A stretch of DNA of 15,224 nucleotides. It comes from Synergistetes bacterium JGI 0000079-D21 (GTDB lineage Bacteria; Synergistota; Synergistia; Synergistales; 79-D21). This document shows, piece by piece, positions 1-13,555 of the stretch (position 1 is its first letter; every line of letters begins with the position of its first letter). Below the pieces are notes generated by a model. It had not been told where the DNA came from, searched no databases, and saw nothing but the letters and a program-made list of their open reading frames with translations. The stretch spans positions 1 to 15,224 of the forward strand of contig AQRZ01000048.1 of the NCBI GenBank assembly GCA_000402835.1, written 5' to 3'. A program made the position numbers and the translations under genes.

Positions 1-95
1 TGCAGGAAGATCCCGTAAGGCCTTCCGGCCAGCGCAAAGAAAACGGTCATACTTCCCGCAGAAAGGATCATTTGTCGTAAAGACGCCCCGGCAAT
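1..95 (+). repeat. Inverted repeat, left copy (at least 95 bp)
   Basis: Bases 1-95 are the exact reverse complement of 4636-4730. Identity stops at base 96 (C, against T expected from 4635). The outer end cannot be judged because the window begins inside the repeat. It covers part of the alaE coding sequence, so it is duplicated gene sequence and not a mobile-element end. Confidence 0.95.
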
Positions 96-395
96 CATCA
101 GGACGATGCCGTAGAGCGGAACCTGAAAGGTGAGGAAGGAAACGGAGTCGGCAACCGCCGCCTGAAACCAGGAGTCCTGCCTGAGCCGCAGGATCTTGAG
201 CAGCCCGTCCCTGTAAATTCCGTATGCCCGCCCGGTGAGGAGGTTGGTCGGAACCGCCGCGAGGCGCGCCGTTAAAGATTGGCCGAAGGTCAATCCAGCC
301 AGGCCGATCTCGATGCTCATGCAAAGGATGGCCGAGAAGACGGTCATTGAAAGCGTGTCTGCTAAAAAAAGCCCCCAGCGGAGGTTTTTCCCCAT
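1..395 (-). CDS. alaE: L-alanine exporter AlaE, 3' end cut by window edge
   Basis: Inner-membrane exporter of the AlaE family, which pumps L-alanine out of the cell. Translating the minus strand from the ATG at 395 gives 131 codons before the window edge. The protein follows E. coli AlaE closely: an N-terminal ADT motif, hydrophobic stretches, a block ending in YGIYRD that corresponds to the E. coli YGMYRD, a TFQVPLYG segment and a YGIFL segment near the C-terminus. It starts only 4 nt after the tpx stop, with AGGG just upstream, so it is probably the last gene of the operon. The missing C-terminus is not lost: it lies on the plus strand at 4731-4764, beyond an exact inverted copy of bases 1-95. 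Joined, the two parts give 142 residues against about 149 in E. coli. The family call is confident; the break is either a rearrangement or an assembly chimera. Confidence 0.88.
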   Translation of the reverse strand, partial: MGKNLRWGLFLADTLSMTVFSAILCMSIEIGLAGLTFGQSLTARLAAVPTNLLTGRAYGIYRDGLLKILRLRQDSWFQAAVADSVSFLTFQVPLYGIVLMIAGASLRQMILSAGSMTVFFALAGRPYGIFL

Positions 396-399
396 GACC

Positions 400-912
400 C
401 TAGAAGAGGGTTCTCAGGAAACGAACGGCGTCCTCGTAATCAGGCTCGTTTGACTGCTCCGGTACGATCTGCACGTACCGGACGGTGTTTTCTGAATCGA
501 CGATGAAAATCGACCTGGCCAGGAGACGCAATTCCTTGATCAGGACACCCCAGGCGGAGCCGAATGAGGCATCACGGTGATCCGAAAAGGCAATTGCCCT
601 GTCGATACCGGATGCCGCGCAAAAACGGCGAATGGCGAACGGCAGGTCCATCGACATGTTGATTACGACCGTATTTTCGGATAGATTCGTCACGTTTTCG
701 TTGAACCAATGGATCTGGAGATCGCAGATTGGTGTGTCGAGCGAAGGAGTAACGGAAAAGACCTTGGTCTTTCCCTCAAAATCCCCAAGCTTCCTGGGCG
801 CAAGGTTCTGGTCCACAACGGAAAAGTCCGGTGCCTTGTCGTTGGGCTTGAGTTCGGGTCCCACCAAAGTGAGAGGATTTCCCTTCATGGTGATGACTCC
901 GGTTCTTTCCAT
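400..912 (-). CDS. tpx: Thiol peroxidase Tpx (atypical 2-Cys peroxiredoxin)
   Basis: Cytoplasmic peroxiredoxin that reduces hydrogen peroxide and organic hydroperoxides using thioredoxin. The start is taken at ATG 912, preceded by GGGGGTG six bases upstream, giving 170 residues, close to the 168 of E. coli Tpx; an in-frame ATG at 978 would add 22 residues with no family match. The GNPLTLVG opening, the SLDTPIC peroxidatic motif (Cys63, with Thr60), the resolving Cys98 in RFCAASG, the active-site Arg133 in LLARS and the EPDYE motif near the end all match Tpx. It lies 52 nt downstream of the cyclodeaminase-family gene and 4 nt upstream of alaE, so it probably shares their transcript. Its place in an amino-acid operon looks like housekeeping for an anaerobe exposed to oxygen, which is inference. 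Confidence 0.93.
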   Translation of the reverse strand: MERTGVITMKGNPLTLVGPELKPNDKAPDFSVVDQNLAPRKLGDFEGKTKVFSVTPSLDTPICDLQIHWFNENVTNLSENTVVINMSMDLPFAIRRFCAASGIDRAIAFSDHRDASFGSAWGVLIKELRLLARSIFIVDSENTVRYVQIVPEQSNEPDYEDAVRFLRTLF

Positions 913-964
913 TCTTTTCACCCCCAGGCGGAATATGGAGTAAAGTCTAGCATGATCCGATCCC

Positions 965-1957
965 TTAAAAGTGAACAACCGTTCCGATTCCCTTTTTTTC
1001 TGCCCGGTTCAAAGCCATGGCTGCGACCATCAGGTCCTGGATGGCCATCCCGGTAGCGTCGAAAAGGGTTATTTCCTCCGCTGAGAGACGTCCCGGTTTC
1101 ATCCCCTCCAGGACGGTCCCGATCTCCGTGATCCTTTCCGCGGGCACAAGTCCAAGTTTGGCCGCGTGCTGGCACTCACCCTTTGCGACTACCTGGGTTG
1201 CGGAATCCGCGAAAACTTTGGCGGAAGCGACGAGTGCCGGTTCGAGTTCCTGTTTCCCGGGCATATCGGCTCCAATGGCGTTGATATGAGTTCCGGGGGA
1301 GACCCACTCCTTTTTCAGGAAGAATTCACGCGATCTCGTGCAGGTGATGATCAGGTCAGACTCTTCCGTTGCACGGGATAGCCCGGAAAATGGGACCGCC
1401 TGCAGCTTGAAACGGGGATAGAGGGCCTGCTGTTCCTCAACGAACCTTGCGGACTGGCTTTCGAGGATATCGGCGACCAGTATGGTTTCAAGTTGCGGCA
1501 TGGCAAAGGACAAACCCAGAAGCTGGGCTCTACCCTGGTTTCCTGCCCCAACGATGAGAGCCGTTCGGCTATCCTTTCGCGCGAAGGTCCTGGCTCCTAT
1601 CGCCCCTGCCGCTCCGGTGCGCAAAAAAGTTACCGGAGTCCCGTCAAGGATGCCTAGGGGCTGCTGTCGATCCACGTCCATGACGATGATGAGCCCTGCA
1701 AGCGGGGGCAAGTTCCGAGCCGGGTTTTCAGCGCACCACCCGAGCATTTTCATGCCGAATACCCCGGCTCCTGCGAGGTGACCGGCTTTCAAGTCCATTT
1801 CCCGTTTTCCGGGCTCGAACTGGTGAACGATGACGGGAAAGACTCCGGCTTCACCCCGGGAAAAAAGGCGGTAGGCCTGTTCGACTCCCTCGATGGCTTC
1901 TGGAATGCCCACCAGTTTTTCAAAATGGGAGCGATCCAGCAGTCTCAACGGATACAT
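965..1957 (-). CDS. Ornithine cyclodeaminase / mu-crystallin family NAD(P)-dependent enzyme
   Basis: Member of the OCD/mu-crystallin family, 330 residues from ATG 1957. The family includes ornithine cyclodeaminase, archaeal alanine dehydrogenase, ketimine reductases and opine-type dehydrogenases, so the substrate is not fixed by sequence alone. Visible are the substrate-side lysines (Lys57 in DLKAG, Lys70), the LRTGAAGAIGA segment, a Rossmann motif VGAGNQG (136-142), the catalytic-type Asp231 in IGADMPGK and the C-terminal DATGMAIQD. The start follows the aminotransferase stop by 5 nt, suggesting translational coupling; an in-frame ATG at 2167 would overlap that gene by 205 nt and is rejected. 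Pairing with an aminotransferase and an alanine exporter makes an alanine- or 2-oxoacid-related reaction plausible, but that is inference. Confidence 0.85.
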   Translation of the reverse strand: MYPLRLLDRSHFEKLVGIPEAIEGVEQAYRLFSRGEAGVFPVIVHQFEPGKREMDLKAGHLAGAGVFGMKMLGWCAENPARNLPPLAGLIIVMDVDRQQPLGILDGTPVTFLRTGAAGAIGARTFARKDSRTALIVGAGNQGRAQLLGLSFAMPQLETILVADILESQSARFVEEQQALYPRFKLQAVPFSGLSRATEESDLIITCTRSREFFLKKEWVSPGTHINAIGADMPGKQELEPALVASAKVFADSATQVVAKGECQHAAKLGLVPAERITEIGTVLEGMKPGRLSAEEITLFDATGMAIQDLMVAAMALNRAEKKGIGTVVHF

Positions 1958-1962
1958 GACCG

Positions 1963-3156
1963 TCAGGAATGATACCGGGCCAGGGTTCTGTCGATTCGCT
2001 CGAGCCCCCTGGCGAGGAAGTTTTTCTCCACTCCGAAGTTCATCCGCAAGTGCCCTTCGATGCCGAAACAACTTCCGGGAATGACGAAGACGCTTTCGTT
2101 TTTCACCATGTCCATGACAAGGTCCCAGGAGGGAACCGAAAGATCGAATTTCACGAAGGCGAAACAACCGGCCTGGGGCGGCGTAAAGGAGAGGATACCC
2201 TTGTGCGAGTTCACCCAGTCCGTGAAGGTTGCGAGGTTCTGTCGGACGATCTCGCGGTTGCGCCTGAAGATGCGGGCACGCATTTCCGGTTTTAGGGCAC
2301 GGGTGGCGAGCATGTCGCTGAATGTGGTTACGGTAGTCGAAAGGTAGTCGTGGTAAAACCAGGCTTTTTCAACGATTTCCCTCGGTCCGGCGATCCAGCC
2401 GACCCTCAGTCCGGGAAGTCCGAAGGATTTGGAAAGGCCGCTGATGACGATGACCTTTTCGTAAAGTCCCCAGAAGCTTGGAGTCATCTCCTCTCCCTGC
2501 TCGGCCCCGCGGTAAACCTCGTCGGAAAGGAGATAGGCCCCGACGCTTTCCGCGACCTTGACCACTTCCAGCATCTGCTCTCTCGAAAGCACGGTCCCTG
2601 TCGGGTTGTTCGGGTTGCACACGCAGATCAGCCTGGTTTTCGGCGTAACGGCCGCCTTCAGGCTGTCCACGTCAAGGGACCAATTCCTGGCAGGGTCAAG
2701 GTTGAAGTTGCGGACGACCGCTCCGTTTGCTTCCACTACGTGGGACAGAAGCATGAAGTTCGGAAGCATGAAGGCGACTTCGTCCCCGGGGTCGATCAGG
2801 CTCCAGGCCAGCAGGTAGAGGGCCTCCGCAGACCCGTTGGTGATAAAGACGCTTTTCGGGTCCATCCCTTCGTAAAAGCTTGCCACGGCCTCACGGAGAT
2901 GCGCCGTCCCGGCGGTGTGGACATACTTGAGATGGAGGTTGTTGTAGACGTCCTCCATCTCTTCAGGCGTCAGGATTTCACGAATGAACATTGGGTAGAT
3001 CCCCGAGGCGCTCAAGTCGTATTCAACTTCGTTTTGGAAACGAGCAAGCGTTCTTTCAAGCTTGAATTCTGCGATCTTCAAACGGATCCCCTCCGTAAGA
3101 GCGAAAAGTGACTGCCTTTCCATCCTAGGGGCCGATTCTAGGGAAGTCAAACCCAT
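1963..3156 (-). CDS. PLP-dependent aminotransferase, class I/II (AAT-I fold)
   Basis: Fold-type I PLP aminotransferase of the aspartate-aminotransferase superfamily, transferring an amino group between an amino acid and a 2-oxoacid in the cytoplasm. Motifs in order: TNGSAEALY (phosphate-binding region), CNPNNPTG, SDEVYRG (Asp stacked on the PLP ring), SGLSKSFG with the Schiff-base lysine, then GLRVGW and a late LRMNFG holding the carboxylate-binding arginine. I place the start at ATG 3156 (397 residues). GTG 3171 has no spacing for a ribosome site, and ATG 3123 is also possible because family similarity begins only around the LKIAEFKLER stretch. It is 76 nt downstream of the ferredoxin-like gene and 5 nt upstream of the cyclodeaminase-family gene. 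The amino-acid specificity cannot be told; alanine is a guess from alaE. Confidence 0.87.
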   Translation of the reverse strand: MGLTSLESAPRMERQSLFALTEGIRLKIAEFKLERTLARFQNEVEYDLSASGIYPMFIREILTPEEMEDVYNNLHLKYVHTAGTAHLREAVASFYEGMDPKSVFITNGSAEALYLLAWSLIDPGDEVAFMLPNFMLLSHVVEANGAVVRNFNLDPARNWSLDVDSLKAAVTPKTRLICVCNPNNPTGTVLSREQMLEVVKVAESVGAYLLSDEVYRGAEQGEEMTPSFWGLYEKVIVISGLSKSFGLPGLRVGWIAGPREIVEKAWFYHDYLSTTVTTFSDMLATRALKPEMRARIFRRNREIVRQNLATFTDWVNSHKGILSFTPPQAGCFAFVKFDLSVPSWDLVMDMVKNESVFVIPGSCFGIEGHLRMNFGVEKNFLARGLERIDRTLARYHS

Positions 3157-3232
3157 CTTTCTCAGGCTCACCCCTGTTGTCCGTTCCTACCTTGAAAGAG
3201 CTAGGTTTTCGTGGGTGACATCAAGAATGTTT

Positions 3233-4438
3233 TCAACGGCGAAAGACCTTTCTCTTCAGCCAGACTCGGAAAGCGTTGGAGAGGTAGCCTGGAACGAGGT
3301 CGAAAAAGAGGTCTGCACGGTTCGAACTTCGTGACGGGGGAGGATTCGCTTCCGTGAGATGGAGCGCCTGGAAGGAGCAGGAAAGCACGCAGAGACCGCA
3401 ACCGATGCAACGGGCCCGATCCAGGACAATTTTCTTACCCACCTGGGAAATAGCCCCCATAGGGCAGGTTTTGGAACATTTGCCGCAGGAAACGCACCTG
3501 GAATCGTCCGCCTCGGGATAAAAACGGGGTGGAGAAATCAGGCCGGGAGAGTTGAACTGCGTGATGCTCCTCATTGCGTGACAGCAGCATCCGCAGCAGG
3601 AACAGCTCGAATTTCCGGTCGGTTCGGAACCGATTTGCCGGTTGATCCAGCTGACGCAACCGGCTGCTTCCGCTTCCTTTTTTATTGCAAGAACTTCCCG
3701 GGCATCTGAAAGCCGCATCAGGCCCCGTTCGATGAACGTTTTCGCATTCCGTCCCATGACCACGCAGTTTTCGAGAGGACGCCCGCACCCCTTCCCGGCA
3801 AGTTCCATCGCGAGCCTGCATTGGCAGTTCCCCACCGCGAATTCGGAATAGCTCGAGAGGATCTCCTCGAGACGTTCCGACGGCCAGGCAAGCGAAAGAG
3901 ACACCGTCGACCCGTGTACCGGCAGGTAGCGGATCCCGGGGATCACTTTTTTCGTGTATTCCGCAATGTAGCCTTCCTCCCAGATCTGCTCGAAAAGAAC
4001 GGCGAATTGCCGGTGCCATTCGTTCCGGGTTCCCACGTCCGGGGTCATGAGGACCATTTCGAAGGTTCCTGGAACGATCGGCATGAGCGTGTATTTTCTC
4101 GGTGTTCCGTAAGAAAGTACGACTCGTTTGCCAAGGGAAAGAAAATCCATCGTCCTTTCCGCTTCTTCCGTGCTCCTTCCGCTCAACCGGGCGATTTGAA
4201 CCGCTGAGCGGGGCCTGAGAGGAGGGAGGTGCTGGACAAGTTCCGCTTCCTCCTCAGTGAAAAGGTGAAGGATGAGGGCAAGCAGTTTTTCGGAAGGCGC
4301 AGGGCCCAAAAGAAGTGGAGAGGAAAAATGCTTCATGACCTTGAAATGGGAAGGAGTGGGGGCGCGGGCGCTTCGGAAACCTGAAGCGGATGCGCCGCCC
4401 AGAAGGGATCGATTTAAAGAAACGGATTTGCTCACCAT
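3233..4438 (-). CDS. Winged-helix and [4Fe-4S] ferredoxin-domain protein with cysteine-dense core
   Basis: A 401-residue multi-domain iron-sulfur protein. About residues 50-130 resemble a winged-helix fold (FTEEEAELVQHL, then QIARLSGRSTEEAERTMDFL). The middle has scattered cysteines (205, 207, 218, 225, 261) and a remarkable run, CSCCGCCC, at 279-286. The C-terminus holds two classic CX2CX2CX3C motifs (315-325 and 344-354) that should bind two [4Fe-4S] clusters. Proteins with this architecture are common in anaerobes and usually annotated only as 4Fe-4S proteins; the partner and reaction are unknown. ATG 4438 has GGGGAAG seven bases upstream; ATG 4336 (residue 35) is the alternative, since the first 34 residues look like low-complexity sequence. 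It is the first gene of the minus-strand operon and is divergent from the nitrilase fragment. Confidence 0.8.
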   Translation of the reverse strand: MVSKSVSLNRSLLGGASASGFRSARAPTPSHFKVMKHFSSPLLLGPAPSEKLLALILHLFTEEEAELVQHLPPLRPRSAVQIARLSGRSTEEAERTMDFLSLGKRVVLSYGTPRKYTLMPIVPGTFEMVLMTPDVGTRNEWHRQFAVLFEQIWEEGYIAEYTKKVIPGIRYLPVHGSTVSLSLAWPSERLEEILSSYSEFAVGNCQCRLAMELAGKGCGRPLENCVVMGRNAKTFIERGLMRLSDAREVLAIKKEAEAAGCVSWINRQIGSEPTGNSSCSCCGCCCHAMRSITQFNSPGLISPPRFYPEADDSRCVSCGKCSKTCPMGAISQVGKKIVLDRARCIGCGLCVLSCSFQALHLTEANPPPSRSSNRADLFFDLVPGYLSNAFRVWLKRKVFRR

Positions 4439-4513
4439 CGCATCACTTCCCCAAAGAGCGATAAAAGATTATTCTATCAGTAATTTCCGATCGGGATCAC
4501 GAGGAGGTCCGAC

Positions 4514-4663
4514 GTGCAGGACTTGAACCTTTCGATTGCGCAACTGTTGCCGACCCTCTTTGATATCCGGGGAAACGCCGCCAAGATCCTGCAGTACATG
4601 GAGGATGCCTCGCGGAAAGGGAGCGATTTGCTCGTATTGCCGGGGCGTCTTTACGACAAATGA
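4514..4663 (+). pseudogene. 5' fragment of a nitrilase-superfamily / NadE-type amidohydrolase gene, broken at 4636
   Basis: A GTG start at 4514 sits 6 nt after a perfect GAGGAGG. The first 43 codons read like the N-terminus of a carbon-nitrogen hydrolase: an SIAQLLPTLFDIRGN opening (compare the AQxNPTVGDIxGN start of glutamine-dependent NAD synthetases) and SDLLVLP, where the family continues with the catalytic Glu and then a TGY-type motif. Instead the frame enters the inverted alaE copy and stops after 49 codons at TGA 4661-4663. The remaining 200-500 residues of such a protein are absent from the window. Whether this is a true NadE, another amidase or a nitrilase cannot be told from 43 residues. 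The clean homology up to the break argues for a recent event or an artefact rather than decay. Confidence 0.75.
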
Positions 4664-4730
4664 TCCTTTCTGCGGGAAGTATGACCGTTTTCTTTGCGCT
4701 GGCCGGAAGGCCTTACGGGATCTTCCTGCA
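4636..4730 (-). repeat. Inverted repeat, right copy (95 bp)
   Basis: Exact reverse complement of bases 1-95. The repeat begins exactly where the nitrilase-like reading frame loses its family similarity. The first eight bases, ATTGCCGG, could belong to either parent gene, because they also encode the family-typical L-P after Val; that would be an 8-nt microhomology at the joint. Confidence 0.95.
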
Positions 4731-4764
4731 AGCCTGCAGAAAATGGGTCCTGTCAAGGTTCTGA
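4636..4764 (+). pseudogene. alaE: 3' fragment of alaE (true C-terminus), displaced to the plus strand
   Basis: In the frame starting at ATT 4636 this stretch encodes the last 42 residues of AlaE and stops at TGA 4762-4764. The first 31 codons are identical to the alaE portion at 95-1; the rest (QACRKWVLSRF) extends past the left window edge and matches the position and character of the E. coli C-terminus (YCRRLF...). It has no start of its own. The stop lies 22 nt before a strong hairpin, which is where an intact alaE would be expected to end, convergent with ssrA. Confidence 0.85.
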
Positions 4765-4779
4765 CTGGCTTCCTTTGAT

Positions 4780-4825
4780 AAAAAACAAGAAGGCCGTTCC
4801 CGCCTTGGGCGGGAACGGCCTTCTT
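4780..4825 (-). terminator. Intrinsic terminator of ssrA (and probable shared terminator for alaE)
   Basis: An 18-bp perfect stem (4787-4804 with 4808-4825) closed by a 3-nt loop. On the minus strand it is followed by G and then six T (complement of 4780-4785), a textbook Rho-independent terminator just past the tmRNA 3' end. On the plus strand the T-richness is weaker (the TTCTTT end), but it also follows the alaE stop by 22 nt, so it could serve both convergent genes. Confidence 0.9.
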
Positions 4826-4831
4826 TCAAGC

Positions 4832-5179
4832 TGGTGGAGGCGCGGAGCATCGAACTCCGGTCCGACAGTGGCCAACCAGACAGGCTCTACGAGCGTAGTC
4901 ACCGATTTCGTGTCGGATTCGAGCTCCCGGTGACCGGATCTCTCCTCCCCAGCTCCCTTGTCTTAGCCGGAGTGCGGGTGCAGTTCCTCCGGAGCGGCCC
5001 TCCTGTCTGACGTCTTTAAGAACCCGAAGGGCAAAGGCTCTTATCGACGTGGCTACTCTTTAGGCAGCCAGTGCGTAGTTTTCGTTGGCACTTCTTTTTT
5101 GCCCCGCGTTTTACAAGGTCTCGGGAATCTTGGCTCGCTCCTCTCGGCCCTCCGACTGCCGTCGAAACCAGTCGCCCCC
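4832..5179 (-). ncRNA. ssrA: Transfer-messenger RNA (tmRNA)
   Basis: tmRNA rescues stalled ribosomes with SmpB. On the minus strand the 348-nt molecule begins GGGGGCGACTGG and ends CGCCTCCACCA; the seven-base acceptor stem pairs fully (one G-U), the T-arm carries GTTCGATGC, and CCA is encoded. The tag reading frame is at 5089-5060 and encodes ANENYALAA followed by TAA, so the finished degradation tag is A-ANENYALAA. The 5' end lies 4 nt after the smpB stop codon. I see no promoter in the last part of smpB (the positions where a -10 box should be read GCGATT), so it is probably transcribed with smpB and released by RNase P. One-piece, not circularly permuted. Confidence 0.97.
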
Positions 5180-5183
5180 AATC

Positions 5184-5672
5184 TCAATCGCTTTCCTCCC
5201 GCCGGCGCCTCACTGCTCGGGCCATTTCCCTCTCAGCATCGCGCTCAGCAATCGAATCGCGCTGATCTCCTTTTGTCTTGTGCTTCACCAGGGCCAACTC
5301 CACCTTGGCCCACCGCCGGTTTTTTATGTAAATCCTCAAGGGGACCAGCGTCAATCCTCTTTCATGGAGTTTTGACCCCAGGCGGATGATCTCGTGTCTT
5401 TTCATCAGGAGCTTTCGGTTCCGGTCCGGGTCTGGGTTGTAGTATGATCCTTTTTCGTAAGGGGAAATATGGACCTTGTATAGCCATAGCTCTCCATTTT
5501 CGATGCGGGCATAACCATCCTTCAGGTTCACCCGCGACTCCCGGACCGATTTGATCTCGGTTCCTGTCAGGACGATCCCGGCTTCGTAGGTTTCCAGGAT
5601 GAAATACTCATGTCTTGCTTTCCGGTTTTGTGCTACGGTTTTTTCTTCTTCTCTCGGCCCCTGATCGCCCAT
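5184..5672 (-). CDS. smpB: SsrA-binding protein SmpB
   Basis: Small RNA-binding protein that delivers tmRNA to the empty ribosomal A site. The 162 residues cover the whole family: NRKARHEYFI, the GTEIKSVRESRVNLKDGYARIENGE core of the OB-fold-like barrel, YNPDPDRNRKLLMKRHEI, and a basic C-terminal tail (KTKGDQRDSIAERDAEREMA then RRRR) that reads the mRNA channel. The ATG at 5672 is the only plausible start: no other ATG, GTG or TTG occurs in frame before the conserved NRKARHEY. A consensus promoter upstream places transcription start on this ATG, so translation looks leaderless. ssrA follows after 4 nt. Confidence 0.97.
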   Translation of the reverse strand: MGDQGPREEEKTVAQNRKARHEYFILETYEAGIVLTGTEIKSVRESRVNLKDGYARIENGELWLYKVHISPYEKGSYYNPDPDRNRKLLMKRHEIIRLGSKLHERGLTLVPLRIYIKNRRWAKVELALVKHKTKGDQRDSIAERDAEREMARAVRRRREESD

Positions 5673-5678
5673 GCTTGT

Positions 5679-5707
5679 ATTTTACTCGTTCTTGGCAGAA
5701 ACGTCAA
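5679..5707 (-). promoter_or_regulatory. Sigma-70-type promoter of smpB-ssrA
   Basis: Minus strand: -35 TTGACG (5707-5702), 17-nt spacer, -10 TAAAAT (5684-5679). Counting seven bases on from the -10 box puts +1 at 5672, the A of the smpB ATG. The hexamers are identical to those of the tRNA-Pro promoter nearby. Confidence 0.8.
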
Positions 5708-5728
5708 TAAAGGTCAGTAAGGGTCGCC

Positions 5729-5759
5729 AAAAAAACGGGATCCGGTTTCCCGGATCCCG
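5729..5759 (-). terminator. Intrinsic terminator downstream of tRNA-Pro
   Basis: Ten-base-pair stem CGGGATCCGG / CCGGATCCCG (5736-5745 with 5750-5759) with a 4-nt loop, followed on the minus strand by seven T (complement of 5729-5735). It separates the tRNA-Pro transcript from the smpB promoter. Confidence 0.92.
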
Positions 5760-5768
5760 ATCTTGGCC

Positions 5769-5846
<78 letters not shown>

Positions 5847-5857
5847 GTTGCCAGCGA

Positions 5858-5886
5858 ATTTTAGCACCCTTGCGGGGCACCGTCAA
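5858..5886 (-). promoter_or_regulatory. Sigma-70-type promoter of tRNA-Pro
   Basis: Minus strand: -35 TTGACG (5886-5881), 17-nt spacer, -10 TAAAAT (5863-5858). Predicted +1 is at 5851, five bases before the mature tRNA 5' end. It is back to back with the AOR operon promoter. Confidence 0.8.
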
Positions 5887-5906
5887 TCGAAGGGGTTTGT
5901 GCAATC

Positions 5907-5935
5907 TTGCGCTTGCTCCCCCCCTTCAGTATACT
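5907..5935 (+). promoter_or_regulatory. Sigma-70-type promoter of the AOR operon
   Basis: -35 TTGCGC (5907-5912), 17-nt spacer, -10 TATACT (5930-5935), predicted +1 near 5942. The leader to the first gene is about 49 nt, too short for a typical molybdenum/tungsten-cofactor riboswitch; it holds only a small GGAC/GTCC hairpin. No operator is obvious. Confidence 0.7.
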
Positions 5936-5990
5936 TAATCTTGCCGTCGAGATGAGGACAAGTGTCCAGACCGAACAAGGGGGGATCATT

Positions 5991-6377
5991 TTGAGGTGGC
6001 TCAAGACGTACGTGGAAAAATGCATCAACTGCGGCAAGTGCATGGAAACCTGCTCCAAGACGTATTTCAAGGAGGAGAACCCTGCTCTTTCCCGGGTCGT
6101 GGTAACCAATCCGGGTGCCGGGCAAAACATCAGTGTCTGTAACCAGTGTGGGGCCTGCATGGCTGTCTGCCCGACCGAAGCTTTGTACCGGGATAAAAAT
6201 GGGGTCGTCCAGCTGGACAAGTCGAAATGTACGTCCTGCCTGATGTGCGTTGGTTTCTGCCCCACGGGGAACATGCTCTACGCCGCTTCAAAGCAGACCG
6301 AGCCCTTCAAGTGCGTGGCTTGCGGCCTCTGTGCCAGGGCTTGTCCCACCCAGGCCCTGGTGCTCGTCAACGATTAG
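5991..6377 (+). CDS. Four-cluster [4Fe-4S] ferredoxin, AOR electron-transfer subunit (AorA-like)
   Basis: A 128-residue iron-sulfur protein with four complete CX2CX2CX3C motifs: Cys 11/14/17/21, 50/53/56/60, 80/83/86/90 and 108/111/114/118, three of them followed by Pro. It should carry four [4Fe-4S] clusters and little else, and accept electrons from the AOR subunit encoded 29 nt downstream. The start is TTG 5991, six bases after GGGGGG; an upstream in-frame ATG at 5907 lies within the -35 box and is rejected. Known AOR complexes of the Aromatoleum type pair the catalytic subunit with a similar four-cluster subunit (AorA) and a flavoprotein (AorC); no AorC gene is present here. The role is strong inference from context. 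Confidence 0.88.
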   Translation: MRWLKTYVEKCINCGKCMETCSKTYFKEENPALSRVVVTNPGAGQNISVCNQCGACMAVCPTEALYRDKNGVVQLDKSKCTSCLMCVGFCPTGNMLYAASKQTEPFKCVACGLCARACPTQALVLVND

Positions 6378-6406
6378 GGATTTTTAAAAGGAGGGCTGGG
6401 CAACTT

Positions 6407-8572
6407 ATGGAAAAGATGAAAGTGCTGGCGGAATGGACCTATACTCCCGCCCCGATTGACAAGGGCTACACGCGCAAGACCCTTTACGTCCATGTCGGCG
6501 AACCGCGCATGGAGATCAAGGATGTTTCCCAGGATATGATCGACACTTTCACGGGCGGCCGTGGATTCGACCTCAAGCTGCTCTGGGATGCAGTCAAGGA
6601 CACGACGAAATGGAACGATCCCGAAAACGAGATCGTCCTTTCCGGGGGACCGCTCTGCGGGATCACCCAGTATCCAGGCGCCGGGAAGTGCTATGCGGCC
6701 TTCATCTCTCCGCTTTCGGGCCAGACCTATGACAGCAACTCCGGAGGCTATTGGGGGCCCCTTTCCAAGTTCAGCGGATTCGATGCCGTCGAGATCCAGG
6801 GAAAAGCTGAAAAGGACATCATTCTCTTCATCAATGGCGATGAGGGGAAAATCCAGATCCTCGAGTCCAACCTGCAGGACCTGAATGCCTACGCAGTCAC
6901 CGAGGCGCTCCACGAATATTTCGCCGTTGACGAGGCCGACAAGCGGAATATTTCCGTCGTGTCTGCAGGGAAAGCTGCAGAAACCTCGTATTACGGCTGC
7001 ATGAACATGAGTTTCTACGATCCCCGGCGAAAGGTGGCTCGCCTGAAGCAGGCCGGGCGCGGTGGCGGCGGATCCATCATGCGGGACAAGAAAATCGCCG
7101 CGCTGGTTGTCAAGTTCTCGAAAATGGGGGGGAACCTCAACAACGTTGTCGATCTGGACACGCTGCAGAAGGTCGGCGTCAAGCTTCACAAGGAAATCCA
7201 CGACCTCGACGACGTCCAGTGCAAGATGCGGAAGGTCGGCACCGCCCACCTGAACGAGATCATGGACGAATATCACCTCCTGCCGACCCACAATTACAAG
7301 TTCGGACAAAACCCGGCCGAGATCTCAAAAATCCACTCTGCCGTCTATGAACGTCTCTTTACCCAGGGAATGCCCGACGGTTGCTGGTATGGATGCTCGA
7401 TGTCCTGTGCAAAGGCCGTAGACGGTTTCACCGTCCAAACCGGGCCTTGCAAAGGTGAAAAGGTTACCGTGGACGGCCCGGAATACGAAACGGTCGCTTC
7501 GCTGGGATCCAACATCGGAGTCTACGATCCCCTCTGGACGATCGAGGCGAATTTCTACGCCGACCATTACGGACTTGACACCATTTCTCTCGGGACCTCC
7601 CTGGCTTTCGTCTGCGAATGCTACGAGCTGGGCCTGATCAACAAGGAACAAACGAACGGCCTTGACCTGAAGTTCGGGAACAAGGACGACATCATGGAAC
7701 TGATCCACCGGATGGCTGCTGGGACGGACGAATTTGCGTCCATCGTGGCCAAGGGGATCCGCTACATGAAGAAGGCCTTTGCGGAAAAATACAAGGCGGA
7801 TGCCAAGACCATGGAAGCGATCGGAATGGAAGGACAGGGTGTTGAAACCTCCGAATATGTTCCGAAAGAGTCGATCGCGCAGTGGGGCGGCTACTACCTG
7901 ACATTGAAGGGCCCGCAGCATGACGAGGCCTGGCTCATTTTCATGGACATGGTCAACAAGCAGCTCCCCACGTTCGAGGACAAGGCAGAAGCGCTCCACT
8001 ACTTCCCGAACTTCCGGACCTGGTTCTCCCTCGTTGGCCTGTGCAAGCTCCCCTGGAACGACGTTGAACCGGCCAACAACCGCATCGTCAACGAGCCCAA
8101 GGAGGCCGCGAAGGTGCCGGAGCACGTACAGAACTACGTCGACATCTTCAATGCCGTGACCGGGAAAAACATTCGGAAGGAAGACATCATCACCATGTCC
8201 GAAAAGGTCTACAACTTCCAGCGGGTTTTCCAGGTCCGAATGAAACAGGGCGATGCGTCTCACAACATCCCGCTTCGAGCCCTCGGCCCGGTTTTCCCGG
8301 ATGAATGGGATGCCCGAAAGGACTACTACGATGGCAAGCTGAAGGAAATCGGGATCGATCCCGCAGCCCTCTCGACCGAGGAAAAGATCAAAAAACTGCA
8401 GGAATACCGCCTTGGAATGTGGGAAGGATTGAAGATGGCGGTTTACAAGCGCCGGGGCTGGAACAAGAAGGGAATCCCGACCGTGGAAACCCTCAAGAGG
8501 CTCGGCATCGACTACCCCGAAGTCGTGGCGGTCGTCGAAAAATACAGCAAGCCGGAGGACATGTTCGAGTAG
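6407..8572 (+). CDS. Aldehyde:ferredoxin oxidoreductase family catalytic subunit (W/Mo bis-pterin enzyme)
   Basis: Catalytic subunit of the tungsten/molybdenum AOR family, which oxidises aldehydes to acids (or the reverse) or, in the BamB branch, takes part in aromatic ring reduction. From ATG 6407, 12 nt after AGGAGG, it is 721 residues, longer than the roughly 600 of classic AORs. Family marks: TGGRGFDLKLLW (49-60), LSGGPLCG, GRGGGGSIMRDKKIAALVV (218-235), cluster-binding cysteines 326, 330 and 334 with the fourth at 546 (GLCKLPW), GPEYET (357-362), GLDTISLG and KGPQHDEAW. The cysteine spacing is CX3CX3C rather than the usual CX2CX3C. An upstream extension to 6227 would overlap the ferredoxin gene and is rejected. 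The substrate is unknown; the MoaD-like gene directly downstream supports a pterin-cofactor enzyme. Confidence 0.92.
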   Translation: MEKMKVLAEWTYTPAPIDKGYTRKTLYVHVGEPRMEIKDVSQDMIDTFTGGRGFDLKLLWDAVKDTTKWNDPENEIVLSGGPLCGITQYPGAGKCYAAFISPLSGQTYDSNSGGYWGPLSKFSGFDAVEIQGKAEKDIILFINGDEGKIQILESNLQDLNAYAVTEALHEYFAVDEADKRNISVVSAGKAAETSYYGCMNMSFYDPRRKVARLKQAGRGGGGSIMRDKKIAALVVKFSKMGGNLNNVVDLDTLQKVGVKLHKEIHDLDDVQCKMRKVGTAHLNEIMDEYHLLPTHNYKFGQNPAEISKIHSAVYERLFTQGMPDGCWYGCSMSCAKAVDGFTVQTGPCKGEKVTVDGPEYETVASLGSNIGVYDPLWTIEANFYADHYGLDTISLGTSLAFVCECYELGLINKEQTNGLDLKFGNKDDIMELIHRMAAGTDEFASIVAKGIRYMKKAFAEKYKADAKTMEAIGMEGQGVETSEYVPKESIAQWGGYYLTLKGPQHDEAWLIFMDMVNKQLPTFEDKAEALHYFPNFRTWFSLVGLCKLPWNDVEPANNRIVNEPKEAAKVPEHVQNYVDIFNAVTGKNIRKEDIITMSEKVYNFQRVFQVRMKQGDASHNIPLRALGPVFPDEWDARKDYYDGKLKEIGIDPAALSTEEKIKKLQEYRLGMWEGLKMAVYKRRGWNKKGIPTVETLKRLGIDYPEVVAVVEKYSKPEDMFE

Positions 8573-8770
8573 ATGATCACCGTAAACGGAGAGCCGCTTG
8601 ACTGGAAACCCGGCATGACGGTTCAGGATGTCCTGGACGCGAAACGGTACACGTTCCGGATGATCGGGGTATGGATCAACGACAAGCCCGTTCCGAAGAA
8701 CGAGTTTCGTACAACTACGGTCCCTGACGGAGCCGTCGTCCAGGCGATCCACATGGTCAGCGGCGGGTAG
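8573..8770 (+). CDS. MoaD/ThiS-family sulfur-carrier protein linked to AOR
   Basis: A 65-residue ubiquitin-fold sulfur carrier. It shows the MITVNGEPLDW opening, a TVQDVLDA segment, NDKPVPKNEF, the PDGAVVQAIHMVSGG ending and the C-terminal Gly-Gly that is adenylated and thiocarboxylated in this family. The ATG follows the AOR stop codon directly, with no gap, so translation is coupled. In molybdopterin synthesis MoaD donates the dithiolene sulfurs; dedicated MoaD-like genes are known beside AOR genes, probably for tungsten-pterin supply. No activating MoeB/ThiF-type gene is in the window. ThiS-type thiamine function is less likely in this context. Confidence 0.88.
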   Translation: MITVNGEPLDWKPGMTVQDVLDAKRYTFRMIGVWINDKPVPKNEFRTTTVPDGAVVQAIHMVSGG

Positions 8771-8787
8771 TGAATCATCGCTGAACG

Positions 8788-8819
8788 AGGAGGGGGGCGC
8801 TTTCAAGCGCCCCCCTCCT
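8788..8819. terminator. GC-rich hairpin between the convergent moaD-like and hypothetical genes
   Basis: A 15-bp perfect stem (8788-8802 with 8805-8819), mostly G-C, 17 nt after the moaD-like stop. Neither side has a T-run, so it is not a classic intrinsic terminator; it may act as an mRNA 3'-end barrier. GTGAATCA at 8770-8777 also pairs with TGATTCAC at 8819-8826, lengthening the structure around a one-sided 10-nt bulge. Confidence 0.6.
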
Positions 8820-8843
8820 GATTCACGGTCCCGAAGCCCAAGA

Positions 8844-9452
8844 TCAGTTTTCCTTCCTGTCTTCTCCCCTGTTCATCTGCCCGAAGTTGAACCCCCTAGC
8901 CTCGTTCTTCCAGTTCAGGCCCGAAACCCTCCCCGGATCCCTGCCGATCGGGATTTCAACCCATCCCCAGGGGCTGAGGAGAAGGACTCTAAGAACGACC
9001 CCCTGTTCCTGGAGCGCACGGACATGCGGCAAATAGCGAAGGACATCTTCAGCCAGCCAACTGTCGCAGAGCAGCCACACTCTTCGGCAAAGTCCCCTTG
9101 CGAACAGAATCGCGTGATCGATCGCCATCCGCATTCCCTCGTCGAAGTCCATGGGGCCGAGACAAAGAACAACGGCATCCCGGTTTTTCGGTACTTTTCC
9201 CAGGTTCGGCAGGAGATCGGCGAAAGGTTCGATCCAAGAAAGCCTGGACAGAATCGAGTCGGGATCTCCCGAAAACCGTCTCTCATCGTATCCATAGAGG
9301 AATTCTTCGTCAGAAAAAAGGGGCCCCTCCCCCTTGAGCGCCGAAACCATCCAGGATCTGATTTCATCCACCAGTTGCAGAATCGCCGGCGGCAAATCCT
9401 CACCGGACATGGCCTTCAGGATTTCTCCGACCGTCATCGAACCCTCATCCAT
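8844..9452 (-). CDS. Protein of unknown function
   Basis: A 202-residue protein I do not recognise. The first 60 residues look helical and acidic (VGEILKAMSG, ILQLVDEIRSWM). From about residue 100 there is an alternating pattern suggesting an alpha/beta fold: the strand-like AVVLCLGP, then DFDEGMRMAIDHAILFARGL, the strand-like RRVWLLCD, helix AEDVLRYLPHVRAL and strand VVLRVLLLSPW. No signal peptide, membrane span or known catalytic motif is visible. The frame stays open upstream to 9596, but that part would cover both divergent promoters and has no ribosome site, so I prefer ATG 9452 (GGTG five bases upstream) or ATG 9437 (GAGGG). It is convergent with the AOR operon and divergent from the ISOC hydrolase gene. 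A real gene is likely from the length and composition. Confidence 0.65.
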   Translation of the reverse strand: MDEGSMTVGEILKAMSGEDLPPAILQLVDEIRSWMVSALKGEGPLFSDEEFLYGYDERRFSGDPDSILSRLSWIEPFADLLPNLGKVPKNRDAVVLCLGPMDFDEGMRMAIDHAILFARGLCRRVWLLCDSWLAEDVLRYLPHVRALQEQGVVLRVLLLSPWGWVEIPIGRDPGRVSGLNWKNEARGFNFGQMNRGEDRKEN

Positions 9453-9509
9453 TTTTGCACCGTCCAACGGGGACCCCCCCTTTCGTTGCCACGAAATCCT
9501 TACCGGGAG

Positions 9510-9518
9510 AGAATACCA
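9510..9518 (-). promoter_or_regulatory. Possible extended -10 promoter of the 8844-9452 gene
   Basis: Minus strand reads TGGTATTCT: a TATTCT box with the extended -10 TGN. No good -35 box is found at 16-18 nt. Its position supports a start codon at or below 9452. Confidence 0.4.
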
Positions 9519-9551
9519 CAAACCGGCAGGTTTTTTGCCCTTCAAATCCGG

Positions 9552-9557
9552 TATAAT
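9552..9557 (+). promoter_or_regulatory. Probable -10 box for the ISOC hydrolase / malic enzyme operon
   Basis: A perfect TATAAT 40 nt before the TTG start. The -35 region is poor: only a T-run at 9531-9536 at 15-nt spacing, or TTGCCC too close at 11 nt, so the promoter may need an activator. Predicted +1 is near 9564, leaving a leader of about 34 nt with AAGGGAGGGG as ribosome site. Confidence 0.5.
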
Positions 9558-9597
9558 TCTCTGGAAACGAGATTCCCCGTAAGGGAGGGGTTCCATA

Positions 9598-10152
9598 TTG
9601 AAACCGTTTCTCCTTAAAGCCGATCAGGCACAGCTGCTGCTAATCGACATGCAGCAGAAACTTTTCCCCGCGATCCACGACCGGGACAACCTCCTGAAAC
9701 AGGCCTGCTTTCTTCTGTCGTCCTGCAAAATCCTGGGGGTCCCCGTCAAGTACACCGAACACTATCCGAAGGGACTCGGCGCGACGGTCCAAGAAATCCT
9801 CGAATGCGTTCCCGAAGGCTCACCGAGATTCGAAAAGATCCATTTCTCCTGCTGGGCTGAACCCGGATTCAACTCCTTCTTTCACAAGGAGGGCAGGCGC
9901 CAGGTCATCGTGGCGGGAATCGAAGCCCACATTTGCGTTTTCTCAACGGCGATGCATCTTTTGGACGTCGGCTACGAAGTCGTCGTTGCCGCGGACGCCG
10001 TAGGGAGTCGAAACCCGGAACACCGCAAGGCGAGCCTCGAAACACTGCTCCACGCCGGAGCGTCCGTTCTTCCGGCCGAGTCGATCGTTTACCAGATGCT
10101 GGAAAAGGCCGGGACACCGGCCTTTAAGGAAATCCTAGCCGCAATCCGGTAG
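9598..10152 (+). CDS. Isochorismatase-fold cysteine hydrolase (ISOC1/2-like)
   Basis: A 184-residue hydrolase of the isochorismatase-like superfamily. The catalytic triad is visible: Asp17 in LLLIDMQQK, Lys80 in FEKIHFSCW and Cys113 in GIEAHICV, with the cis-peptide GIEA typical of the fold. The YTEHYPKGLGATV segment and the FKEILAAIR ending closely resemble animal ISOC2 and its bacterial relatives, which have no firmly assigned substrate. The alternatives within the superfamily (nicotinamidase, true isochorismatase) fit less well. The start is TTG 9598, seven bases after AAGGGAGGGG. It is followed after 12 nt by the malic enzyme gene, so the two are probably one transcript; a shared pathway is not evident. 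Confidence 0.9.
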   Translation: MKPFLLKADQAQLLLIDMQQKLFPAIHDRDNLLKQACFLLSSCKILGVPVKYTEHYPKGLGATVQEILECVPEGSPRFEKIHFSCWAEPGFNSFFHKEGRRQVIVAGIEAHICVFSTAMHLLDVGYEVVVAADAVGSRNPEHRKASLETLLHAGASVLPAESIVYQMLEKAGTPAFKEILAAIR

Positions 10153-10164
10153 GGAGGAAGCCCG

Positions 10165-11409
10165 ATGCCCATCGACCGAATTCGAGCCATGGAGCTCCAT
10201 CGGCGCGCAAAGGGGAAGATCAGGATCTACCCGACGATCAATATTTCCAACGAAGAAGACCTCTCGATGGCCTATATTCCAGGGAGCGTAGGACCATGCC
10301 AGGCCATCCGCGAGGATCCCGAAGCAAGTTTCGATCTTACCGGACGCGCAAACCGGATAGCCGTCATCACGGATGGGAGTGCCGTTCTTGGTCTCGGCGA
10401 TGTGGGCCCGGAGGCCGCCTTGCCTGTCATGGAAGGCAAGTGCCTGCTTTTCAAGCTTTTTGGAGATGTGAATGCCCTGCCCATCTGTCTCGACAGCCGG
10501 AACCCGGCTGATGTCATTCACACCGCCGAATTGCTGGCCCCTTGTCTCGGCGGCTTCAACATCGAGGATATTTCCAGCCCCAACACCTTCACTGTCGTGC
10601 ATGAGTTGCAGAAAAAAGTCTCCATCCCCGTCCTTTGCGACGACCAGCACGGCACAGCGGTGGTCATCCTGGCGGCTCTCTGGAACGCCCTGGAAGTCGT
10701 CGGAAAGTCCCTGGAAAAATCCTCGATCGTCATCTGCGGAGCCGGGGCCGCGGGACTCGCAGTTGCAGACCTTTTTCTGAAAGCCGGGGCTACGGGCATT
10801 ACGATCCTGAATAGTGCCGGGATCCTTTGCCCGTCGAATCCGAAAATGAACCACCTTCAACTGGATTTCTCCAGCCGTACGAACCCGGAGGGACGGGAAG
10901 GCGGCCTGGAAGAGGCAATTAAGGGGGCCGATGTTTTTATCGGGCTTTCCAGGGGCAACCTGCTTAACCCGGAATGGATCCGTACGATGGCGAAGGACCC
11001 GGTCATTTTCGCTCAGGCACTGCCTGAACCGGAAATCATGCCGGAGGTTGCCCTAGCAGCAGGCGCCGCGATTGTCGCTTCCGGCCTTTACGATTACCCC
11101 AACGTCATCTCAAATCTTCATTCCACCCCCGGGATCATGAGGGGGGCTCTCGATGTCAGGGCCGCTTCTCTAAGCGATGCGATTTTCCTTTCGGCTGCGA
11201 GAGCGCTTTCCGCCACGGTGGACCGGCGGAGGCTCGGCCCCCGGCATATCATGCCGGACCTTTTCTGCGATGAAGTTGTTCCCAACGTGGCAGAAGCTGT
11301 CGCCCAAGCTGCGATATCCGAGGGTCTTGCCGCACACCCTCTTCCTAGAGGACAGGTCTACAACGATACCTGGGAACGACTTTTCGGGGGAAGGGCTGCG
11401 CGTTTATAA
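10165..11409 (+). CDS. Malic enzyme family protein, divergent (malate -> pyruvate + CO2)
   Basis: A 414-residue protein with the full bacterial malic enzyme layout; the family decarboxylates malate to pyruvate with NAD(P). The ATG has GGGAGGA six bases upstream. Conserved: Tyr37 in MAYIPG (catalytic acid), DGSAVLGLGDVGPEAALPVMEGK with Lys92 (catalytic base), the metal ligands Glu134-Asp135 (NIEDI) and Asp159/160 (DDQHGTA), the nucleotide motif GAGAAG (192-197) and the ending GIMRGALDVRA. Departures from the usual family sequence: the YTPG motif reads YIPG, GVDAFPI reads DVNALPI, SAPRCF reads SSPNTF, TGRSDYPNQVNN reads SGLYDYPNVISN, and the acidic residue after the nucleotide fold is replaced by ILNSAG. 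Ligands remain but several substrate-side residues differ, so altered specificity is possible. Confidence 0.87.
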   Translation: MPIDRIRAMELHRRAKGKIRIYPTINISNEEDLSMAYIPGSVGPCQAIREDPEASFDLTGRANRIAVITDGSAVLGLGDVGPEAALPVMEGKCLLFKLFGDVNALPICLDSRNPADVIHTAELLAPCLGGFNIEDISSPNTFTVVHELQKKVSIPVLCDDQHGTAVVILAALWNALEVVGKSLEKSSIVICGAGAAGLAVADLFLKAGATGITILNSAGILCPSNPKMNHLQLDFSSRTNPEGREGGLEEAIKGADVFIGLSRGNLLNPEWIRTMAKDPVIFAQALPEPEIMPEVALAAGAAIVASGLYDYPNVISNLHSTPGIMRGALDVRAASLSDAIFLSAARALSATVDRRRLGPRHIMPDLFCDEVVPNVAEAVAQAAISEGLAAHPLPRGQVYNDTWERLFGGRAARL

Positions 11410-11412
11410 CGC

Positions 11413-11458
11413 AATGAAGGAAGGTTGAAGGGTCCGACCCCTTCAACCTTCCTTCATT
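11413..11458 (+). terminator. Terminator hairpin shared by the malic enzyme gene and ogt
   Basis: A 20-bp perfect stem (11413-11432 with 11439-11458) with a 6-nt loop, 4 nt after the malic enzyme stop and followed on the plus strand by T-rich sequence (TTCGTTTTCTTT). On the minus strand the stem holds the last codons and stop of ogt, so one hairpin serves both convergent genes; T-richness on that side is poor. Confidence 0.8.
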
Positions 11459-11946
11459 CGTTTTCTTTCGTATTCGATTAGCCAGGCTTTCAACACTACC
11501 CCCGCTTTCCCTCCGTAACCGCGAAGTTCTCCGTTTTTCCCGACCACACGGTGACAGGGAAGAAAGAGGGGCCATGGGTTCGCTCGCATGATGGCTCCAA
11601 CGGCCCGCGCTCCACGGGTGAATCCCGCAGCACGAGCCACCTCGCCGTAGGAGAGTGTGGTTCCGTATGGAATTCCCGAAACGACCCTCCAAACTGCAGC
11701 GGTTATCGGGGAAGGTTTTCTTTCGGTGCAAAGAGGCACGTTGACCGGCCGACCTTCCCAGAAGTCGTTCCAGGCTCGCTCCAGCCAGGCCGGGCATTCG
11801 CTGCAGCCTGGGCAGCCCTGCAAGTTGCCGATCCACTTCAGCCGGTAAAGTCCCGAATCCCCCCAAGTCGCAAGCCAAAACCCCTTCGGTGCCTCCAGAA
11901 TCGCTTCCCTCTTTTCTTCGGGATAAACGCAGTGTATCCATAGCAT
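11443..11946 (-). CDS. ogt: Methylated-DNA--[protein]-cysteine S-methyltransferase (Ogt type)
   Basis: Suicide DNA-repair protein that takes the alkyl group from O6-alkylguanine onto its own cysteine. The 167 residues contain the SYGEVARAAG helix-turn-helix segment, GARAVGAIMRANP with the hinge Asn, the active-site motif PCHRVV (Cys131), GYGGK and the helix ending LIEYE. The N-terminal domain is short and carries CPGCSEC (Cys 45, 48, 51), unusual for the family and possibly a metal site. The ATG at 11946 is 3 nt after the stop of the upstream membrane methyltransferase-family gene, so translation is probably coupled. The last codons lie within the shared terminator hairpin. Confidence 0.93.
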   Translation of the reverse strand: MLWIHCVYPEEKREAILEAPKGFWLATWGDSGLYRLKWIGNLQGCPGCSECPAWLERAWNDFWEGRPVNVPLCTERKPSPITAAVWRVVSGIPYGTTLSYGEVARAAGFTRGARAVGAIMRANPWPLFLPCHRVVGKNGELRGYGGKAGVVLKAWLIEYERKRMKEG

Positions 11947-11949
11947 CCT

Positions 11950-12543
11950 TTAAAACACCCCCAGGGCCTTCAGAAGGAAAAGGATCGTACCGAGGACCGT
12001 TACATAAAGGGAATGCCGCTCGCTTTTCCACAAGCGGGAAACGACAAACGGGCCCTGCAATCTCTTGCGCCGGATCCCACGGAAAGGGAACAACCTAGGC
12101 GTGGAAGCCTTGTATTCCAGGTAATCCCGGCCGAAGTTCTCCTCTAGGAACCCCTCTTCGTAAGGGATGATGAGAAGGCAGTAGAGAAAGAGGAAGGAGA
12201 CCAGAAAAAACGCAACGGCCACGGAACCTGCCAGCAGGCTCCAACCGAGTCCGATCAAACCGTTCCCGAGATAGAGGGGATTACGGACAATCCCGTAAGG
12301 TCCCCAGGTAACGAGGGTCTTCGCGTTGACCTTTTCGCTTCGGTATCCCTCGATGATCCCTGCTGCCCAGAAACGGATCCCCTGCCCGAGGAAAACCAGG
12401 AGAAGCCCGGGAAGGATCCAGCCCTCTCCGCCCTTTCCCAGAAACAAAATCAATAGGACCAGGCCGGTCCAAATCCCGCCCCTCATGCGGAACGTCCAGT
12501 CCTGGATGGTTCTAAGATTCATTTTCGTCTCGTTTTGCTTCAT
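11950..12543 (-). CDS. Isoprenylcysteine carboxyl methyltransferase-family integral membrane protein
   Basis: A 197-residue membrane protein of the ICMT/phospholipid methyltransferase superfamily. Hydrophobic spans are visible at about 24-36, 43-63, 93-125 and 180-195. The signature region reads TWGPYGIVRNPLYLGN (79-94), and the SAM-side motif PYEEGFLEENFGRDYLEYKAST follows at 127-148. In bacteria such proteins methylate small hydrophobic or lipid substrates, mostly unknown. The ATG at 12543 overlaps the flippase-like gene by 32 nt; ATG 12522 (residue 8) is an alternative with an 11-nt overlap. Either way the three minus-strand genes form one operon. The substrate cannot be told. Confidence 0.85.
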   Translation of the reverse strand: MKQNETKMNLRTIQDWTFRMRGGIWTGLVLLILFLGKGGEGWILPGLLLVFLGQGIRFWAAGIIEGYRSEKVNAKTLVTWGPYGIVRNPLYLGNGLIGLGWSLLAGSVAVAFFLVSFLFLYCLLIIPYEEGFLEENFGRDYLEYKASTPRLFPFRGIRRKRLQGPFVVSRLWKSERHSLYVTVLGTILFLLKALGVF

Positions 12544-13555
12544 TCAGGATCTTTTCTGCCATTCCCCATCCTAGGAACCGCAAGGCTACAAGAGCTCCCA
12601 GCCCGATCGCAAGGTATTCTGTAAAGAACCTCCAACCGATCGCCATCACTCCCGCAAGATTCCAAGGGATCAGGTAGCGGAAAATCGTCGCCCCGCCCGC
12701 TTCGGCAAAACCGCTCCCGCCAGGTGTGGGGACAAAATACATCACGAAATTGAAGAGGGCCTGGATCAGTATCGCCTGGCCGAAATGGATGGGAAGGCCG
12801 ACTGCCTTGACGAGAGTCGGCAGGATGCCCCAAATGCAAAACAGCTGGCAGAAGGAAAGAACAAATCCTGAAACGAACCAACTGAATCCGGTTGTAAAAA
12901 ACAGCCTGAAGTTTTCCGTGTAGTTATCGATCTCCCTGTTCAGGAGCCGAACCACCCTGAGGACTTTCATCGGCTTCACGATTCCCACCCTTTTCAAAAG
13001 AAGGGTGACTATTTTGCCCGTCTTTTTGACTGCTCCCGGGTAGACGAGACTCAGGCCGATCACAATCCAGGCCATCAGGACAAACGCCGCAACATAGTAA
13101 AAAACTCCAGTCATAAAGGAGCTCCCCGACAGGATGTCCGGCGCGAAGATCAAGGTCATCGCCACCACGCAGCCCACGATAAAAAGCGTGGCCATCGTTC
13201 GGGTCAGGGTGATGGCAATCCCCTTGCCCACGGGGACCCCGTTCCGGTACAGGACGTAGACCTGGAAGGGCCCGCCTCCACCCTGCATCGGGGTAATGGC
13301 CGAGCCGAAATAATTCAGCCAGGTGAGGCAAATCGACAGCCGAAAGCCGACCCTTTCCCCCGCGGCTTTCGCAAAAGCCATGAACCGGAAGGCATCGAAA
13401 ACCCAGGAGAGAATGACCAGGCCAAGAGCCTGGAGAAGCTGTGCTTTCCGTGCCGAAAGCAGGAAACGCAGGGTTTCCCTGTCAACCGTCAGGAATAAGA
13501 CCAATCCGACGGAAAGAAACGTGATGCCGAGAAAAAGGGCGATCCCTTTACGCAA
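12512..13555 (-). CDS. Flippase-like integral membrane protein (UPF0104 / LPG_synthase_TM family)
   Basis: A 347-residue polytopic membrane protein of the UPF0104/flippase-like family, related in fold to the membrane part of lysylphosphatidylglycerol synthase. Several strongly hydrophobic spans are seen (for example 5-23, 41-55, 121-139, 151-172, 220-244, 260-275, 302-330). Family marks are TPMQGGGGPFQ (88-98) and the loop PTPGGSGFAE (276-285). Related proteins move or modify lipids; the specific role here is unknown. The start is TTG 13555, with GGAGGTG five bases upstream. It is the first gene of an operon with the ICMT-family and ogt genes; a lipid-related link with the methyltransferase-family neighbour is plausible. 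No clear promoter is visible in the 89-nt gap before it. Confidence 0.88.
   Translation of the reverse strand: MRKGIALFLGITFLSVGLVLFLTVDRETLRFLLSARKAQLLQALGLVILSWVFDAFRFMAFAKAAGERVGFRLSICLTWLNYFGSAITPMQGGGGPFQVYVLYRNGVPVGKGIAITLTRTMATLFIVGCVVAMTLIFAPDILSGSSFMTGVFYYVAAFVLMAWIVIGLSLVYPGAVKKTGKIVTLLLKRVGIVKPMKVLRVVRLLNREIDNYTENFRLFFTTGFSWFVSGFVLSFCQLFCIWGILPTLVKAVGLPIHFGQAILIQALFNFVMYFVPTPGGSGFAEAGGATIFRYLIPWNLAGVMAIGWRFFTEYLAIGLGALVALRFLGWGMAEKILNEAKRDENES

Follow-up and report, generated by a model that had tools for sequence, protein, structure and literature searches.

We analysed a 15,224-nt stretch of DNA from Synergistetes bacterium JGI 0000079-D21 (hereafter the window), which begins inside alaE, the gene for an L-alanine exporter, and repeats its own first 95 bases in inverted orientation about 4.5 kb further on. 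Between the two copies lie four genes encoding a thiol peroxidase, an OCD-family dehydrogenase, an aminotransferase and a 4Fe-4S protein, and then the start of a nitrilase-family gene that breaks off shortly after the second copy begins. The last codons of alaE, a tmRNA and smpB follow on the far side. This analysis concerns the join at position 4636, where nitrilase sequence turns into alaE sequence, and the inverted repeat that accompanies it.

The two arms of the repeat pair at 95 of 95 positions across a spacing of 4540 nt, in agreement with an earlier note on this DNA that had described bases 1-95 as exactly repeated, inverted, at 4636-4730. Pairing ends at the inner edges (4635/96), where a G precedes the arm on the alaE strand and a T occupies base 4635. 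On its outer side the left arm reaches base 1, and any further leftward extent falls beyond the window sequence. Chance does not explain such a repeat, the second-longest one listed for the window measuring 31 nt at 81%. At 4636 the nitrilase-type frame becomes alaE, as the note had reported, running through LVLP into GRLYDK and a stop. The note had also proposed that the two sides of the join share an 8-nt microhomology, ATTGCCGG, which is correct if the next nitrilase codon specifies Glu (GAA or GAG), the residue present in 45/45 relatives counted. Among 200,000 inverted joins drawn at random within the window, at least 8 nt were shared in a fraction of 0.00015.

Both broken genes have unbroken counterparts in protein databases. 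If reading of the alaE frame starts at 395, proceeds to base 1 and resumes at 4731, eleven further residues precede a stop, for a total of 142. This joined protein is identical at 142/142 residues to P0001, a database protein of 142 residues and the best of 40 found with the AlaE fragment, and the sequence past 4730 is thereby recognized as the natural alaE C-terminus and stop, again as the note had claimed. The P0001 entry as a whole comprises 6 member sequences and 30 contigs, the longest of 80,374 nt. For the nitrilase gene, 81 proteins were gathered with the gene of one relative (L001, introduced below) as query, and intact relatives bear PF00795. Protein P0044 (293 residues, on one 7,608-nt contig) matches the N-terminal residues of the window at 43/43, with the GTG start taken as Met, and continues with EMSLTGYG; it thus carries the conserved Glu exactly where the window jumps and has no alaE sequence at the break. 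Residue 44 is Glu in all 45 nitrilases that share at least 15 of the 43 residues, the other 36 of the 81 being uncounted, and we take it to be the first catalytic residue of the nitrilase family. Judged from these protein comparisons, the same lineage or one very close to it has intact versions of both alaE and the nitrilase gene. The chimeric 49-aa frame, by comparison, retrieved 1 protein in a protein search, encoded on one 34,576-nt contig that is probably the window's own contig.

The native order of these genes can be read from relatives. When a single genome of each species was scanned, relatives of the 4Fe-4S protein turned up at 14 loci. Four loci contain alaE and come from metagenome-assembled genomes with the label Synergistaceae (L001-L003) or Synergistales (L004); tblastn detected no alaE in the stretches fetched for the remaining ten. 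In all four relatives alaE is complete and single-copy, and downstream of it stand tmRNA, smpB, ferredoxin and aldehyde ferredoxin oxidoreductase, which is the order found in the window right of 4731. At the other end of the block the nitrilase gene adjoins the 4Fe-4S gene and points away from it, as it does at 4514 in the window, in the three of the four loci that reach this far; the L003 contig stops short of the nitrilase gene, and a matching stretch is on another contig of the same genome. The four genes of the loop keep their native order among themselves.

DNA matches to the four whole genomes place the break at the same position. In each, the match to the right-hand part starts at 4636, while the nitrilase-side match stops at 4641 in two genomes and earlier in the other two. 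The alaE stretch is a single place matched from both sides, with one copy of the arm in every genome and locus. Position 4636 joins sites that are not adjacent in these relatives, and the sequence right of 4731 therefore belongs left of base 1. The earlier note had suggested comparing gene order with relatives, and the comparison places the two segments of the window in inverted junction with respect to the native order in 4/4 alaE-bearing relatives. Its claim that everything right of 4636 is the reverse complement of what belongs left of base 1 is accordingly backed by four relatives as well as by the intact AlaE and nitrilase. In a wider search of window positions 1-6400 against 101 genomes (G003 and its relatives, two candidates scored per genome), none of the matches listed crosses the join, and among them only those of G001-G004 cover the arm, the right-hand matches starting at 4636 and the nitrilase-side matches ending at or before 4641. 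No DNA of the same species turned up for comparison at base level, the best DNA identity on the arm side being 85%, and the exact 33-nt join had 0 matches among the viral contigs scanned.

Table 1. Features around the join, in window coordinates.
Feature	Position	Strand	Description	Basis
Left arm	1..95	-	alaE interior, cut by window start	Inverted-repeat listing
alaE (L-alanine exporter)	3..395	-	Residues 1-131	PF06610, 117.4 bits
Thiol peroxidase	400-921	-	Loop gene	
OCD-family dehydrogenase	965-1957	-	Loop gene	
Aminotransferase	1963-3111	-	Loop gene	
4Fe-4S protein	3233-4438	-	Loop gene	
Truncated nitrilase-family gene	4514..4663	+	GTG start, 43 native residues to LVLP, then chimeric GRLYDK and stop (49 aa)	
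Right arm	4636..4730	+	Inverted copy of the left arm's 95 nt of alaE; first 95-mer common to native and chimeric paths in the model	
Microhomology ATTGCCGG	4636..4643	+	At the join; nitrilase side equals alaE side	Final base deduced from the conserved Glu codon
alaE C-terminus and stop	4731..4764	+	In frame with base 1, native continuation	Joined-protein comparison; gene end by count
tmRNA	4832..5179	-	Tag ANENYALAA; native neighbour downstream of alaE in 4/4 relatives	
smpB	5184..5672	-	Following native neighbour	

The loop genes have some features of their own. The proximity of alaE to the OCD-family gene and the aminotransferase (window 3-3111) perhaps reflects a module for forming and exporting alanine in an amino-acid fermenter. 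The best NCBIfam match of the OCD-family gene is archaeal alanine dehydrogenase, at 226.9 bits and under the cut-off of 409.15. This gene occurs in three of the four relatives (not in L003), and the thiol peroxidase in two (L001 and L004). The product of 3233-4438 is a 4Fe-4S protein of 401 aa. All its Pfam matches lie near residues 308-372 and are to ferredoxin-type domains; genomes of the Planctomycetes type, of Anaerolineae and of Deltaproteobacteria also encode relatives, 37-43% identical.

We propose that the 95-base inverted repeat is very probably the seam of a fold-back chimeric molecule that was collapsed by a k-mer assembler, and not a chromosomal rearrangement. On this reading the window contains a single such join, at 4636-4643, and apart from it follows the gene order of the relatives. 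On the chromosome, alaE would continue from base 1 into 4731 onward (alaE end, tmRNA, smpB), and the nitrilase gene would continue past 4643 with its own sequence. During copying, a growing strand would have been displaced once it arrived at ATTGCCGG of the nitrilase gene, and would have annealed inside alaE to the complementary CCGGCAAT, which lies about 4.5 kb earlier on that strand. Extension of the annealed strand, following the mechanism published for chimeras made by phi29 polymerase in multiple displacement amplification (MDA), would then have written all that lies left of base 95 as its reverse complement. A de Bruijn assembler given such a long hairpin would be expected from our graph model to merge both arms into one path and to leave a k-long overlap at the contig start, which at k=95 would be the 95-bp repeat.

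Published descriptions of MDA chimeras agree with several properties of the join. The relevant passages of PMC1855051 (Lasken and Stockwell, 2007) report inversion in 406 of 475 MDA chimeras and inversion with parts less than 10 kb apart in 337 of 475; 93.5% of these inverted <10-kb chimeras had at least 2 bp of complementarity, with a maximum of 21 bp, and the mechanism given is that a displaced 3' end re-primes on a nearby displaced strand. In the passages of PMC5372508 that treat chimera structure, overlaps peak at 7 nt with more than 95% within 3-13 nt, and the parts lie mostly within 5 knt of each other with a favoured spacing of 80-280 nt. The window join is inverted, brings together parts less than about 10 kb apart (4540 nt), has complementarity within the 2-21 bp range (8 nt) and loses the intervening continuation, and it fits the published chimeras in overlap and orientation. 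Unlike them, it is seen in an assembled contig and not in reads. An origin in MDA in particular is likely, and a fold-back in another library step would look the same. The earlier note had named an MDA chimera or a fold-back misassembly: the artefact and the inverted join are supported, whereas an assembler alone could hardly have produced it and the MDA origin stands as likely only.

The assembly step was modelled with a de Bruijn graph of the inferred native sequence and the fold-back product, built from the window's own letters. In de Bruijn assembly, contig ends overlap by k. In the model, the long arms merge to one unitig (4636-15224), and the ends of the loop unitig are mutually reverse-complementary over exactly k. 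Four values of k (55, 77, 95 and 127) each gave a repeat of length k, and with 95 the loop unitig coincides exactly with window 1-4730. With k taken as 95, the window repeat opens directly past the point where the two paths part and is k bases long, the branch node of the model being 4636-4730. The fold-back sequence alone gives unitigs 1-4730 and 4636-15224; from the native sequence by itself a single unitig without a loop is obtained. The window overlap resembles the k-long unitig end overlap of a de Bruijn graph. It differs in being inverted and in lying within one contig, since the path runs into its own first node as a reverse complement. On this model the 95-nt arm length is probably the assembler's k, and the start at base 1 together with the repeat end at 4730 would be the output of a k=95 assembler, if the nitrilase branch was missing, dropped or passed over. 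Such a setting has been used: the methods passages of PMC7507113, PMC10066038 and PMC7065516 describe SPAdes in single-cell mode with a largest k of 95, and that of PMC8522061 describes the same largest k in --meta mode. Those of PMC9012536 and PMC6424206 mention single-cell SPAdes and contain no k list, the latter with 100 bp trimmed from contig ends. None of the passages found states that contig ends overlap by k, and the rule rests here on the graph models and on general knowledge of such assemblers.

Several points weigh against this interpretation or its parts. The native nitrilase continuation, if present in the graph, splits the loop at 4643 (a random stand-in for it gave unitigs 1-4643 and 4549-4730, still beginning at base 1), and the assembler must have lacked, dropped or bypassed it. 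According to their methods passages, the three single-cell pipelines with k=95 (PMC7507113, PMC10066038, PMC7065516) trim 200 bp off contig ends; this would remove the overlap, and the source would therefore have to be untrimmed. The contig with the chimeric frame, at 34,576 nt, is longer than the window, so that base 1 is not certainly a contig end. Were the window an excerpt of a longer contig, the figure of 95 would reflect only the place of the cut, with the palindrome extending further left; the fold-back reading stands either way. The 4.5-kb spacing is near the outer edge of the range in the passages of PMC5372508 (80-280 nt favoured, most within 5 knt), and we infer both the whole-genome amplification and k=95. 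As to the protein evidence, the contig of P0044 may be from a close strain. The single match of the 49-aa frame relies on gene callers calling so short a frame, and uncalled copies are missed. Finally, the database clusters proteins at 90% identity, and the 30 contigs of P0001 represent the whole entry, not necessarily identical proteins.

A fold-back could also have taken place in the cell. A real inverted duplication of the fold-back or tandem-inversion type, in a cell or subpopulation, perhaps as a recent event in a minority of cells of this Synergistales population, would involve a template switch at the 8-nt microhomology and would leave a second, inverse copy of alaE-tmRNA-smpB onward with one nitrilase copy truncated. 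Its join, microhomology and collapsed graph would not differ from those of a chimera, from which the sequence alone cannot separate it. We nevertheless consider it unlikely: it is absent from 4/4 relatives that hold the region, and the chimeric frame was found on one contig only, as against 30 contigs for the entry of P0001, whose AlaE sequence is that of the native join. Long perfect palindromes are moreover unstable in bacteria, which we count against it. A simple inversion without duplication was rejected, as alaE 1-95 would then occur once and not twice, unless one copy is the graph overlap. An error of assembly or gap closing alone, without any chimeric molecule, gains something from the model, in which the overlap at the contig start is made by the graph in any case. 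However, the methods passages found use no SPAdes k smaller than 21, and the shared stretch is 8 nt; a chimeric or real molecule with the join is therefore needed unless a scaffolder or gap-filler forced it, which leaves such an error very improbable.

The earlier note had further raised an invertible 4.5-kb segment between the 95-bp inverted repeats, that is, a phase-variable switch. As in known invertible DNA switches, inverted repeats do flank a block of genes here. Against this, the arms are the coding interior of one gene, alaE; the arm is single-copy in 4/4 relatives; and the intact matching nitrilase P0044 has no alaE sequence at the break. A search of three relative loci (L001, L002 and L004) found in none of them an inverted repeat of at least 30 nt pairing the alaE and nitrilase ends, its sole match being a 31-nt pair at 71% in L001, beyond alaE near smpB. 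A Pfam scan that covered nine of the window's proteins matched no recombinase among them. With one arm copy in the relatives and P0044 free of alaE sequence, we give a switch of this kind almost no credence.

Two further features lie to the right of the join. The first ~48 called codons (9450-9596) of the reverse-strand open reading frame at 8844-9596 are matched by relatives in another frame in 4/4 loci, and in L002 and L004 the main-frame match also extends over them. The DNA of 9450-9596 is well conserved and includes GGTATAATTCTC (9550-9561) and GAGAATACCAC (9509-9519), which form an approximate inverted motif; it may perhaps be a conserved promoter or operator between divergent genes rather than coding sequence. 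Between a malic-enzyme-like gene and the convergent reverse-strand gene at 11443-11946, a perfect 20-bp hairpin with a T-rich tail (11413-11458) resembles a terminator, and it overlaps the 3' end of the latter gene.

Taken together, the proposed fold-back chimera leaves alaE and the nitrilase gene looking broken and the tmRNA-smpB block looking inverted in the contig, and on this evidence none of this is so in the genome. The join holds no new biology. Its meaning is one of quality control: a simple way to flag fold-back chimeras is to look for a perfect inverted repeat that runs from the first base of a contig and is as long as a common assembler k (95 in this case), and public assemblies could be scanned for it.

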